From Pseudomonadota bacterium (lineage in GTDB: Bacteria > Pseudomonadota > Alphaproteobacteria > SHVZ01), in the NCBI GenBank assembly GCA_016195085.1, contig JACQAG010000084.1, positions 1-64,000 of the forward strand: a stretch of DNA of 64,000 nucleotides, given 5' to 3'. The notes beneath the pieces are model-generated. The model searched no databases. It was not told the origin of the DNA and saw only the letters and a list, made by a program, of their open reading frames with translations. Shown piece after piece: positions 13,979 to 53,958 of the stretch (positions are counted from its first letter, which is position 1; each line of letters begins with the position of its first letter). The translations under genes and the position numbers were made by a program.

Positions 13979-14327
13979 GGGGCGCTCCGCCGGGGAAGGG
14001 AGGGAGGCCGGCCGTTTCGGGCTCGGCGTCTGGCGCTGCGATCGCCGCGGCATCGCGCCGCACCTGACCACGCCGCCGGCGGTTGCCTGGGTCACCGACT
14101 GCGCCTTCGGCGGACACGGCAACCGATTGCTGTATATGGCGGATTCGGGCGCCTGTCGGATCCTCGTGGCAGTGCCGCCGGTGCCCAGGCGCCCGCCGTT
14201 TTCCTACCCTTGGGGGGCGCGCGAGCAAGGGTTCGCCGTGCAAATCTCCTTGCAATTGCAAGTCGCTTGCATTTAGCTCGGGCCGTTGTCTAATAATGCA
14301 AGTCAGTCGCAGTCGCAGGAGGATGGG
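13979..14327. other. Intergenic stretch (349 bases) with iron-regulator-like palindromes at its right end
   Basis: I see no gene between the MFS stop and the cupredoxin gene. The left two thirds are C/G-rich and featureless; the right end contains the palindromes annotated separately at 14250-14271 and a further TGCAAG half-site at 14297-14302. Confidence 0.6.
14250..14271 (+). promoter_or_regulatory. Overlapping palindromes, probable Fur-family operator
   Basis: TTGCAATTGCAA (14250-14261) is a perfect palindrome that overlaps a second one, TGCAAG-TCG-CTTGCA (14257-14271). A further TGCAAG lies at 14297-14302. TGCAA/TTGCA arms with a short centre resemble Fur/Mur-type boxes of alphaproteobacteria. 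The site is about 60 bases ahead of the cupredoxin start in front of two iron-uptake genes, so iron repression is the simplest reading (inference). Confidence 0.55.
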
Positions 14328-14669
14328 GTGAGCTTGTTGAAGCTGTGGTTTTCGGCCCTGGCGGTGCTGGTGATCGTGCTGGGGGGCGTTGCCGCATCGG
14401 CCGATGAGCCTGTCTTCATGCTGACGATCAAGAACCACCAGTTCGAGCCGACGGAAATCATCATTCCGGCCGACACCAAGGTGAAGCTCCTGGTCAAGAA
14501 CGCCGACGCCACGCCGGAGGAGTTCGACAGCAAGGATTTGCGCCGCGAGAAGGTGATCCCGGCCGGGCAGGAGGGAACGATCTTCATCGGGCCGCTGAAG
14601 GCCGGCACCTACAACTTTATCGGCGAATTCAACCCGGCGACGGCCAAGGGCCGGGTCGTGGTGAAGTAG
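14328..14669 (+). CDS. Cupredoxin-like periplasmic protein of a ferrous-iron uptake system (FtrB/EfeO-N like)
   Basis: Small secreted protein of 113 residues. The N-terminal hydrophobic segment (LWFSALAVLVIVLGGVAASA) is a signal peptide or anchor. The rest is a single cupredoxin-like beta domain (IKNHQFEPTEIIIPADTKVK ... PAGQEGTIFIGPLKAGTY). In FTR1-linked systems such a protein is thought to oxidise or hand over ferrous iron. The usual copper-ligand His near the C-terminus appears as Asn (GEFNPATAKG), so metal binding may differ. GTG at 14328 follows GGAGG by five bases; an upstream TTG in the same frame overlaps that region and is rejected. The FTR1 gene follows 15 bases later. Confidence 0.8.
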   Translation: MSLLKLWFSALAVLVIVLGGVAASADEPVFMLTIKNHQFEPTEIIIPADTKVKLLVKNADATPEEFDSKDLRREKVIPAGQEGTIFIGPLKAGTYNFIGEFNPATAKGRVVVK

Positions 14670-14684
14670 CAGGCGCGCGGATCC

Positions 14685-16271
14685 ATGCTCGGCACCGCCA
14701 TCATCGTCTTCCGCGAGGTCATCGAGGCGGCCCTCGTCGTCAGCATCGTCATGGCGGCCTGCCGGGGGCTCGTCGGTCGGGGCTTCTGGGTCGGAACGGG
14801 CATCCTGGGCGGGCTCGCCGGCGCCGGCTTGGCCGCCCTCTTCGCCGGCAGGCTCGCTCAAGCCGCCGAAGGCATGGGGCCGGAGCTGTTGAACGCCGGC
14901 ATCCTGCTCCTCGCGGTGGCGATGCTCGGCTGGCACAACGTGTGGATGGCGCGTCACGGCCGCGAGCTGGCGAACCAAGTGCGCGAGGTGAGCCGGGCGG
15001 TGCTCGCCGGCGCGCGTCCGCTCTATGCCTTGGCGATCGTGGTCGGCGTCGCGGTCTTGCGCGAGGGTTCGGAAACAGTGCTCTTCGTCTACAGCATCGC
15101 CACCAGCGAAGGTGCCGATGCAGCGATGATGCTGACCGGCGGATTCATCGGTCTCGTGCTCGGCGCCGGCCTCGGCGCCGGGCTCTATTTCGGCCTTCTC
15201 AGGATCCCGATGCGCCACCTCTTCACCGTGACCAACGCGCTCATCCTGATGCTCGCCGCCGGCATGGCGGCGCAAGCCGCCGATTTCCTGATCCAGGCGA
15301 ATGTGCTGCCGGCTTGGGGCGAGGCGGTCTGGGACACGTCCTCGATCCTGGATGAGCGCAGCATCCCCGGCCGCGTGGTGCACACCCTGACCGGCTATGT
15401 CTCGCAGCCGACGGGCATGCAGGTGCTGTTCTATGCAGCGACGCTCGCGATCATCCTTCTCCTCATGCGCACGATCGGGCGCAATGGCCAGGAGGCCGGC
15501 AAGCGTCCGCCCGGTGCGGCCATGCATGCGGCGATCGGCACGCTCGTCGCCGGCGTCTCCCTCGGCGCCGTCGCGACCGAGGCCAGCGCCGATTTCAAAG
15601 TGCGCTCACCGATCGTCGAGCAAGGCGAGATCGAGCTCGAGCACAACGGCTCGGTTACCTTCGACAAGAGCAACTCGGGCAAGGACAACGCCCGGAGCTA
15701 CACCAACTCCATCGGCTATGGCGTGACCGAGTTTTGGAAGACCGAGCTCGAAGGCGAATGGGGTGCCGATCCCGGCAGCACCCTTCGCTACAGCGCCACC
15801 ACCTGGGAGAACGTGTTCCAGCTCGTGGCCCAGGGGCAATACTGGGCGGATCTCGGCTTCTTTGCCGAGTATTCGCGCGCCGCCATCCGCGGCTCGGCGG
15901 ATTCGGTCAAGTTCGGTCCGCTCGTGGAGAAGGAGTGGGGCGACAGCCTGCACACCGCAAACCTGCTGTTCGAGAAGGAAGTTGGCCAGGGCCGCACCGA
16001 GCGCACCGGCTTCAGCTATGCCTGGCAGTCCAGGCTGCGCCTACATCCGCTGTTCGAGCCCGGGGTCGAGCTCTATGGCGAGGTTCCCGACATCCATAGT
16101 CCGGGCAAGCCGGCCGATCAGCAGCATCGTATCGGTCCGGTGGCGGCGGGGCTCTATGACGGGCTGCCATTCGGCAAGCTCAAATTCGAGGTGGGGTACC
16201 TCTTCGGTCTCACCCCGGCGACCGAGAAGGGTGCGGCCCGCTGGCGCCTGGAATACGAGTTCAGATTTTAG
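14685..16271 (+). CDS. FTR1-family iron permease fused to an outer-membrane beta-barrel-like domain
   Basis: Single frame of 528 residues. Residues 1-265 form an FTR1 permease with seven or so helices and both iron-binding REXXE motifs: REVIE (10-14) and REGSE (126-130). After a basic linker, residues 280-302 look like a complete signal peptide (M280, hydrophobic core, cleavage-like TEASA-DF). The last ~225 residues are a soluble or barrel-like beta domain rich in alternating aromatic strands (YWADLGFFAEYSR, FSYAWQSRLRL) and end in Phe (RLEYEFRF), as outer-membrane barrels do. No ribosome-binding site sits close to codon 280 (ATG at 15522), so separate translation is not evident. Part of the iron locus with the cupredoxin gene. 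The fusion is unusual: inner-membrane and outer-membrane parts in one chain. Confidence 0.8.
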   Translation: MLGTAIIVFREVIEAALVVSIVMAACRGLVGRGFWVGTGILGGLAGAGLAALFAGRLAQAAEGMGPELLNAGILLLAVAMLGWHNVWMARHGRELANQVREVSRAVLAGARPLYALAIVVGVAVLREGSETVLFVYSIATSEGADAAMMLTGGFIGLVLGAGLGAGLYFGLLRIPMRHLFTVTNALILMLAAGMAAQAADFLIQANVLPAWGEAVWDTSSILDERSIPGRVVHTLTGYVSQPTGMQVLFYAATLAIILLLMRTIGRNGQEAGKRPPGAAMHAAIGTLVAGVSLGAVATEASADFKVRSPIVEQGEIELEHNGSVTFDKSNSGKDNARSYTNSIGYGVTEFWKTELEGEWGADPGSTLRYSATTWENVFQLVAQGQYWADLGFFAEYSRAAIRGSADSVKFGPLVEKEWGDSLHTANLLFEKEVGQGRTERTGFSYAWQSRLRLHPLFEPGVELYGEVPDIHSPGKPADQQHRIGPVAAGLYDGLPFGKLKFEVGYLFGLTPATEKGAARWRLEYEFRF

Positions 16272-25099: not shown

Positions 25100-25330
25100 T
25101 CTCGTTCCCCGCCCGATGGTGGTGGAACGATCTTGCCCTGATCCGGGAGCATCTTCAAATCGGCCGAGATCCAGGCCTCTCTTTCGATCTGTCGTCCCTG
25201 CGGCAGGCCGTCTTCAATCGACATTTCTCGGGGCACCGCCGGATCCTGGACCAAGCCGCCGGCATCGGGCGCAAGATCGCGCACACCGTCGAACCCGCTT
25301 GCGCGGGGCCTCGATCACTGCTGAACTGAA

Positions 25331-25412
25331 GACGGCTGGGGTGCCGTGCGCCGATGGCGCGCGGCTGAGAGCACACCCATCGAACCTGCCTGGGTCATGC
25401 CAGCGAAGGGAG
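25331..25412 (+). promoter_or_regulatory. TPP (thiamine pyrophosphate) riboswitch, THI element
   Basis: The conserved core is readable in order: GGGGTGCC (P2 arm), GGCTGAGAGCACACCC, GAACCTGCCTGGGTCATGCC and AGCGAAGGGAGC. It lies directly ahead of thiO and runs into its ribosome-binding site: the GGGAG of the final helix is also the Shine-Dalgarno of the TTG start at 25418. Thiamine pyrophosphate binding would therefore hide the start site and block translation of the thi operon. 25100-25330 upstream holds nothing else that I recognise. Confidence 0.92.
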
Positions 25413-25417
25413 CCGAT

Positions 25418-28231
<2,814 letters not shown>

Positions 28232-43918: not shown

Positions 43919-46900
43919 ATGACCATGCTGCAAGTCACGCGCCGGCAGTTCTTCCGCTATGGCGGTAGCGCCTTGGGCGCCTCCACGCTGACCGCACTCG
44001 GCTTCTCGCCCAAGGACGCGCTGGCCGACGTCAGACCGTTCAAGCTCGAGCGCACGACCGAGACGCGCAACACCTGTCCGTATTGCTCGGTCGCTTGCGG
44101 CGTCATCATGTATTCGATCGGCGATCGCTCGAAGAACGCCAAGGCCTCGATCGTCCACATCGAAGGCGATCCGGATCACCCGACCAACCGCGGCACGCTC
44201 TGCCCAAAGGGTGCGGCGCTCATCGACTTCATCAAGGCGCCGACCCGGCTCATGTATCCAGAGTACCGGGCGCCGGGCACGAAGGAGTGGAAGCGCGTCT
44301 CCTGGGATTGGACGGTGGAGCGCATCGCCAAGCTCATGAAGGAAGACCGCGACAAGAACTTCATCGCCAAAAATAATGACGGCGCCACCGTCAATCGCTG
44401 GCTCAGCACCGGCTTCCTCGCCGCCTCCGCCACCTCGAACGAAACCGCGTTTCTGACCTACAAGGTCGTACGCAGCATGGGGATGGTCGTCTTCGATAAT
44501 CAGGCGAGGGTTTGACACGGACCGACGGTGGCCAGTCTGGCCCCAACATTCGGTCGCGGCGCGATGACGAACCTGTGGGCGGACATCAAGAATACCGACC
44601 TCGTCGTCATCATGGGCGGCAATGCCGCCGAAGCGCATCCCTGCGGCTTCAAATGGGTCACTGAGGCGAAGGCGCACAACAAGGCGAAGCTGCTCGTCGT
44701 CGATCCGCGCTTCACCCGCTCGGCCGCGGTCGCCGACCTTTACGTGCCGATCCGGCCGGGCACAGACATCGCCTGGCTCGGCGGCCTCATCAATCATCTG
44801 CTGCAGAACGACAAGATTCAGCACGAATACGTCAAGTCGTTCACCAACGCCTCCTACCTGGTGAAGGACGGCTACAGCTTCACCGACGGGCTCTTTAGCG
44901 GCTATAGCGAGGAGAAGCGTGACTACGACCGCTCCAGCTGGGACTACCAGCTGGACGAGCAGGGCTACGTCAAGATCGACGAGACCCTGCAGAACCCGCG
45001 CTCGGTCTACCAGCTGATGAAGGCGCATTACGCCCGCTACACGCCCGAGATGGTCGAGCGCATCACCGGCTCGCCCAAGGACAAGCTGGCCGAAGCCTGG
45101 GCGCTCATCGCCACAACCTCGACGCCCGATCGGGTCATGACCAGCATGTACGCGCTCGGCTGGACCCAGCACTCCAAGGGCTCACAGAACATCCGCACCA
45201 TGGCGATGGTGCAGCTGCTCTTGGGGAATATCGGAGTGCGCGGCGGCGGCATGAACGCGCTCCGCGGCCATTCCAACATCCAGGGCCTGACCGATCTCGG
45301 CCTCATGAGCAACCTGATACCGGGCTACTTGACCTTGCCCGGCGATCGCGAGGTCGATCGCGCCACTTATATGTCCACCCGGCAGTTCAAGCCCTTGCGC
45401 CCCGGCCAGCTCAGCTATTGGCAGAACTACGGCAAGTTCTTCGTCAGCTTCCAGAAGGCGATGTGGGGCAAGGCCGCCACCGCGGAGAACGACTACGCCT
45501 ATGACTGGCTGCCGAAGCTCGATGTCGGCTATGACATCCTCCGTGCCTTCGAGCTCATGCATCAGGGCAAGATCAATGGCTATTTCTGCCAGGGCTTCAA
45601 CCCGCTCATGTCGTTCCCCAACCGGGCGAAGGTCCGGGCGGCTTTAGCCAAGCTCAAATACCTCGTGGTGATGGACCCGCTCGCCACCGAGACCGCGAGC
45701 TTCTGGGAGAACCACGGCGAGTACAACGACATCGAATCCGCCTCTGTGCAGACCGAGGTCTTCCGTCTGCCGACGACCTGCTTCGCCGAGGAAGACGGCA
45801 GCCTGGTCAACTCCGGACGTTGGTTGCAATGGCATTGGAAGGGCGCCGACGCACCGGGCGAGGCGATGTCGGACATCCAGATCATGGCCCGGCTGCAGCT
45901 GAAGGTGCGCGAACTCTACGGCAAGGAGGGCGGCGCCTTACCGGAGCCGATCGTCAATCTGACCTGGCCCTACCGGCGGGGCGATGAGCCGCAACCCGAC
46001 GAGATCGCCCGGGAGATCAACGGCTCGGTGTTGGAGGACGTGGTCGATCCCAAGGACCCGACCAAGGTCATTCTCGCCGCCGGCCAGCAATTGAACCTTT
46101 TCGCCGAGCTCCGCGACGACGGCAAGACCGCCTGCGGCTGCTGGATCTATTGTGGCTCCTACACCCCCGCCGGCAACCAGATGGCCAGGCGCGACACCTC
46201 GGACCCGGCCGATGCCGGGCTCACCCCGGGTTGGGCCTGGTCCTGGCCGGCCAATCGCCGCATCCTCTACAACCGCGCCTCCGCCGATTCCAAGGGCAAG
46301 GCGTGGGATCCCAAGCGCAAGCTCATCGAGTGGAACGGCCAGCGCTGGGCCGGCATCGATGTGCCGGACTTCGTCATCACCTCCAAGCCGGAAGACGGCA
46401 TGGGCCCGTTCATCATGAATCCGGAGGGCACGGCGCGTCTGTTCACCCGCGGCATGATGCGGGACGGGCCGTTCCCGGAGCACTACGAACCATTCGAGGC
46501 GCCGGTCGCCAACGCGCTGCATCCCAAGGTCGGGCCCAATCCGGTCGCGCGCGTGTTCAAGGGCGATCTCGAAGTCTTCGGCAAGGCCGCGGACTTCCCG
46601 ATCGTCGCGACCACCTACCGTTTGACCGAGCACTTCCATTTCTGGTCGAAGCACACGCGCATCAACGCCATTCTGCAGCCGGAGGAGTTCGTCGAGATCG
46701 GCGAGGCGCTGGCGGCGCAGAAGGGCATCAAGAACGGCGAGCGCGTCCAGGTGCGCTCGAACCGCGGCCGCATCAAGGCGGTCGCCGTGGTCACCAAGCG
46801 CATCAAGCCGTTCAAGATCGACGGCAAGGACGTGCATCTGGTCGGCATACCCCTGCATTGGGGCTTCACCGGCCAGACCCGCAAGGGCTTCGGCCCCAAC

Positions 46901-53862: not shown

Positions 53863-53958
53863 GGAAGGGAAGCGTCCCTGGTGGGGCGGCTGGACTTCAA
53901 ATCCAGTAAGGGTCGTAAGCCGGTCCTTGGTGGGTTCGACTCCCACTCTCTTCCGCCA
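53863..53958 (+). tRNA. selC: tRNA-Sec (anticodon UCA)
   Basis: 96 bases including an encoded CCA. The anticodon arm CTGGA-CTTCAAA-TCCAG presents TCA, and the core GGCGGCTGGACTTCAAATCC is nearly identical to E. coli selC. It has the long acceptor stem (eight pairs, one G-U) and a long variable arm (GGGTCGTAAGCCGGTCC) expected for bacterial tRNA-Sec, and a TTCGACTC T-loop. It lies directly behind selB, completing the selenocysteine set. Confidence 0.95.

Follow-up and report, generated by a model that had tools for sequence, protein, structure and literature searches.

The closest described counterparts of the locus analyzed here are FTR1/EfeU permeases and the FtrABCD system of Brucella and Bordetella, which likewise comprises an FTR1 permease with both R-E-x-x-E motifs and a periplasmic cupredoxin (PMC11966278). 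In the passages of that paper that set out the model, the cupredoxin is the ferrous oxidase and FtrC the permease, and no dedicated outer-membrane component is named (PMC11966278); more generally, the parts of the cited literature dealing with FTR1-type systems assign no dedicated protein to the crossing of the outer membrane by ferrous iron. MnoP and other pore fusions of Alphaproteobacteria join a barrel to another domain, as happens here. However, the sections of the pore-family survey on such proteins describe fusions as rare, the listed ones linking barrels either with one another or with soluble domains, and none with an inner-membrane permease (PMC4827864). No description of a fusion between FTR1 and a barrel was found in our literature search, conducted mostly outside subscription journals.

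The window, i.e., the whole stretch of 64,000 nucleotides that was analyzed, contained at 14685-16271, on the plus strand, one frame that is open over 528 codons (528 amino acids) without internal stop. In agreement with the original prediction, this frame encoded an FTR1 permease followed in the same chain, after an internal signal peptide, by a predicted outer-membrane barrel (Table 1). Residues 1-259 matched PF03239 (FTR1) with 110.2 bits, far above the curated cut-off of 25.3, whereas the score against the EfeU equivalog NF041756 (135 bits) fell below its curated cut-off of 255. Both R-E-x-x-E motifs lie in transmembrane helices and were invariant in the 14 aligned fusions. Secondary-structure prediction on the full chain gave seven permease helices, an extra helix at residues 277-293 and twelve strands. 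Directly upstream of the fusion we found a cupredoxin gene (PF13473, 101.7 bits; ORF 14286-14669), whose GTG start at 14328 and Shine-Dalgarno AGGAGG were read off the sequence; genes for an MFS transporter and a beta-lactamase-fold protein flank the pair. The locus thus shares with FtrABCD a cupredoxin next to FTR1, but neither FtrA nor FtrD was encoded directly adjoining the fusion among the flanking genes examined and, unlike in FtrABCD, an outer-membrane barrel forms part of the same chain. A second, unfused FTR1 was present in the same genome (L003, G000:C38:21123-21953; 51% identity over residues 1-277), and the search for a barrel adjoining it gave none; the fused FTR1 therefore need not be the main permease.

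Table 1. Features of the fusion gene and its upstream region in the window.
Feature	Position	Strand	Details
Candidate iron-responsive operator, TGCAA/TTGCA cluster	14239..14311	+	Perfect inverted repeat TGCAAGTCGCTTGCA at 14257-14271
Periplasmic cupredoxin gene	14328..14669	+	Probable GTG start; AGGAGG at 14317-14322; own signal peptide
FTR1 iron permease domain	14685..15485	+	Residues 1-267; seven helices; R-E-x-x-E motifs R10-E14 and R126-E130; PF03239
Basic cytoplasmic linker / n-region of internal signal peptide	15486..15524	+	Residues 268-280; net positive charge in 14/14 fusions
AGGAGG within linker codons	15490-15495	+	26 nt 5' of ATG 15522 (codon 280); start-codon scan
h-region and c-region of internal signal peptide	15525..15590	+	Residues 281-302, ending in ASA; predicted cut A302/D303
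12-stranded outer-membrane beta-barrel, predicted	15591..16268	+	Residues 303-528; C-terminal Phe; AlphaFold, best solved fold FapF

Whole-genome searches turned up 16 further genomes with permease and barrel fused in frame in this way, or 17 with that of the window, distributed over six families and two classes. Within the window's class it appeared in G120, G279, G735 and G687, each from a different family; in the second class it was present in twelve genomes of family f176, one of the copies (L065) being cut off by a contig end. This second class probably corresponds to the Zetaproteobacteria, judging from its 16S length (1537 nt vs. 1487 nt in a genome of the window's class), class size and RuBisCO content (36 of 39 good genomes, which fits autotrophic Zetaproteobacteria). 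The shorter 16S agrees with the window's class being probably Alphaproteobacteria, the genome of the window itself having yielded no 16S; a literature search on FTR1 in Zetaproteobacteria returned nothing relevant. Since the same fusion exists in many bacteria it is real, and its recurrence in 16 other genomes rules out chance or base-calling error. A sequencing or assembly error joining adjacent genes in the window genome, which the original prediction had asked to be considered, could be favored by the window's order, where the copy comes from one assembly and no relative among the genomes searched carries the gene for comparison, as well as by the existence of separate forms with overlapping genes. 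The 16 further fusions, with the same linker anatomy, led us to discard this error, whose probability we consider negligible.

The junction followed a common order in the 14 full-length fusions that were aligned: the last permease helix, a net-positive stretch, a hydrophobic 12-mer (mean hydropathy 2.0-3.0), the cut-site motif and the mature barrel, typically with KVYSPIVEQGE. Ala at position -1 was invariant and position -3 was occupied by A, S or T in 14/14 of them, the preceding segment being variable. In the window, cleavage is predicted after ASA302, an AxA motif, and before D303. The original prediction had located the signal peptide at residues 280-302; the signal and its cleavage site were borne out, but the basic n-region (R266, K273 and R274) lies upstream of Met280. 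Basic residues of the permease cluster in alternate loops (27-32, 90-104 and 173-178, plus the tail beginning at 262) so that, following the positive-inside rule, its N-terminus would be outside and its C-terminus inside; this topology was derived from sequence and predicted helix positions, not from a topology program. With the C-terminus inside, the internal signal peptide would run from cytoplasm to periplasm, as export of the barrel requires. Comparison of related pairs indicated that the linker changes faster than both domains, for which dN was far below dS (dN/dS about 0.05-0.14), reflecting purifying selection. Signal peptides evolve fast, as the linker does here. A precedent for such an arrangement is fbcH of Bradyrhizobium japonicum, a cytochrome b/c1 precursor in which an internal signal sequence comes after a polytopic inner-membrane protein and the chain is cut in two. 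The fusion resembles fbcH in its single frame with a signal sequence inside it and a cut site that is conserved, and differs in that the second product of fbcH is a membrane-anchored periplasmic cytochrome whereas here it would be an outer-membrane barrel.

The missing ribosome-binding site near codon 280 had been taken originally as a sign of independent synthesis of a second protein; our results lead to the opposite conclusion, the missing site arguing for one chain. In the linkers of the fusions, the start-codon scan detected no start codon convincingly preceded by a Shine-Dalgarno sequence, the only near-placed motifs among those scanned being weak GAGG/GGAG ones in L040, and the linker of L017 lacks ATG, GTG and TTG altogether. 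A barrel started also, or only, at a codon within the linker, with two proteins arising from one frame, could find favor in Met280, the only linker ATG preceding the hydrophobic segment in the window, in the AGGAGG upstream of it, and in the many relatives that make the barrel from its own gene. However, this AGGAGG cannot serve the ATG because it is spaced too far from it, and the product initiated at Met280 would carry a signal peptide without a basic n-region. Internal initiation was consequently rejected for want of a well-placed ribosome-binding site, none being possible in L017 with any of the three codons, and we judge it improbable. The AGGAGG itself may be what remains of a once separate barrel gene, or a chance occurrence.

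An uncut chain, either tethering both membranes or leaving the barrel stuck at the inner membrane, would be compatible with the data insofar as cleavage is itself deduced from the sequences. Against this, the hydrophobic segment and the first barrel strand were 19-21 residues apart in 14/14 fusions, equivalent when fully extended to about 7 nm, and the periplasm measures about 20 nm. The linker thus appears too short to bridge the periplasm. The residues kept at -1 and -3 and the purifying selection acting on the barrel also weigh against an uncut chain, which seems highly improbable. Of the two outcomes contemplated originally for a single chain, cleavage or a span across the periplasm, the first is the one favored by the conserved cut site.

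A polyprotein cut by signal peptidase I appears to be the most economical reading of these data. One chain would yield, once processed, an iron permease of the inner membrane and a pore admitting iron at the outer membrane, a proposal that we regard as probable. The chain would be inserted through Sec, with the FTR1 part entering the inner membrane co-translationally and adopting the N-out, C-in orientation described above. While the basic linker remains cytoplasmic, the hydrophobic segment would traverse the membrane in the role of an internal signal peptide, taking the barrel through to the periplasm. Cleavage by signal peptidase I after ASA302 would release the barrel and leave one additional helix at the C-terminus of the permease. 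The barrel would then be inserted in the outer membrane by BAM, by means of its C-terminal aromatic signal. The result would be a three-part route for ferrous iron, in which the pore admits the metal, the cupredoxin handles or oxidizes it, and FTR1 transports it through the inner membrane. Being fused, pore and permease would be made in a constant ratio, and a protein of the outer membrane would follow the route that those of the inner membrane take.

The barrel part was characterized separately. Profile searches with the C-terminal 249 amino acids gave no match to any Pfam or NCBIfam family and the window barrel had none in PHROGs, so its assignment to a family by sequence was dropped; a barrel profile run against PDB sequences produced chance-level matches, none of them convincing. 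PF13557/COG4313 did not match the window barrel and matched weakly 6 of the 56 aligned barrels (best E 6e-5). The barrel prediction called for originally returned twelve strands with high scores (AlphaFold pLDDT 96.9, pTM 0.90; alignment of 55 sequences, one row from a plasmid record being left out). Comparison with solved structures placed FapF as the best fold (TM 0.61-0.73), followed at a greater distance by Tsx, OmpG, KdgM and the COG4313 channel (4rl8; TM 0.61). All of these are outer-membrane barrels, FapF, Tsx and KdgM having twelve strands as well, and the window barrel shares their fold at 5-12% identity without any match at the level of sequence family. The C-terminal Phe, considered typical of beta-barrels in the original prediction, was present in the window barrel and in 50 of the 56 aligned barrels overall. 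The even number of strands, the internal signal peptide and the C-terminal aromatic residue are consistent with a location in the outer membrane. In strand 1, Glu317 and Glu319 were each conserved in 85% of the barrel set, alternating with hydrophobic residues, and this pattern suggests an acidic lumen.

Elsewhere, the barrel was encoded by its own gene, often adjoining FTR1 and cupredoxin genes. The separate genes that the original prediction had regarded as incompatible with a true fusion do exist, but they coexist with repeated fusions. In L001 the barrel gene follows FTR1 with overlapping stop and start codons and in L016 it lies close behind FTR1 with a plausible ribosome-binding site; in L011 it comes after a cupredoxin gene, in L046 it precedes FTR1, and in other cases it stands alone. 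A Hydrogenophaga plasmid (NZ_CP044976.1) carries FTR1 followed by a barrel gene broken by an in-frame stop; in its annotation (L028, 4908-5657) the barrel corresponds to two "hypothetical proteins" and may be a decaying gene. In L055 (G560), feoA and feoB are transcribed divergently from a cupredoxin-barrel pair and the fetched stretch contains no FTR1, which suggests that Feo, too, can be served by the barrel. In a tree of 57 barrels, 16 of them fused, the state changed between fused and separate at least 9 times, 6 of these changes being forced by well-supported branches, counts that are inexact given the long branches and the paralogues that may figure among the "separate" copies. Both states occurred within genus g98 and within family f136. 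A single fused clade was rejected by the AU test (p 0.0002), which argues against a single origin of the fusion, with the same reservation as to long branches and paralogues; gain and loss being indistinguishable, the tree indicates that fusion would have arisen or been lost repeatedly.

Upstream regions were scanned with the 19-bp Fur consensus, for which matches of 15-18/19 were reached by 0-2 of 200 shuffles. Such matches preceded 10 of the 11 fused f176 operons with enough upstream sequence, as well as L014 and L084; weaker ones (12-14/19) were obtained for L002, the window, and for L017, L040 and L069. The best match in the window operon was 12/19, i.e., it has no classical Fur box. Its upstream region holds instead a candidate iron-responsive operator, since 7 of the 58 TGCAA/TTGCA words of the 64-kb window fall within one 75-bp stretch, a cluster which may resemble alphaproteobacterial Fur/Mur operators; the perfect 15-bp inverted repeat inside it was found without mismatch at this place only. 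Stand-alone barrel genes of f176 also had Fur matches of 16-18/19 (L045, L047, L049, L052, L056, L058 and L066), which ties the barrel itself to iron. In these seven loci no FTR1 was found in the fetched stretch; L066 is a partial copy.

Gene neighborhood and regulation would thus make the barrel an outer-membrane entry for ferrous iron. The polyprotein could still be cut as proposed and its barrel serve another purpose, such as transport of another metal, export or envelope structure: its nearest solved fold is the secretion pore FapF, pores for other cargo adopt this fold too, and a Co/Ni efflux protein is encoded among the neighbors of the Hydrogenophaga plasmid barrel. Nevertheless, the Fur boxes preceding stand-alone barrels and fused operons, together with the pairing with FTR1, cupredoxin and feoAB, make a function other than iron entry unlikely.

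Taken together, these results point to an undescribed outer-membrane part of the FTR1 iron-uptake system. The barrel family is a concrete, testable candidate for the entry of ferrous iron, because its gene adjoins those of FTR1 and cupredoxins and is preceded by Fur boxes even when alone. In a wider sense, and with a likelihood that we place slightly above even, the fusions may represent a recurrent class of bacterial polyproteins that unite in one chain a permease of the inner membrane and the outer-membrane pore feeding it, the pore riding the co-translational inner-membrane route until released by signal peptidase I; the class would have arisen or been lost repeatedly and would give a name to an undescribed Fur-regulated family of outer-membrane pores for ferrous iron. 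Because its outer-membrane part would reach the translocon after a polytopic protein of the inner membrane, the fusion offers a natural case in which the choice between SecB/SecA and SRP is testable, and the 17 fusions and their separate-gene relatives provide a natural comparison.

Other elements were located in the window away from the fusion. Rfam models identified a SECIS_3 element at 44510-44568 and a selenocysteine tRNA at 53863-53954, about 9 kb apart, and a TPP riboswitch was present on the plus strand at 25327-25428.
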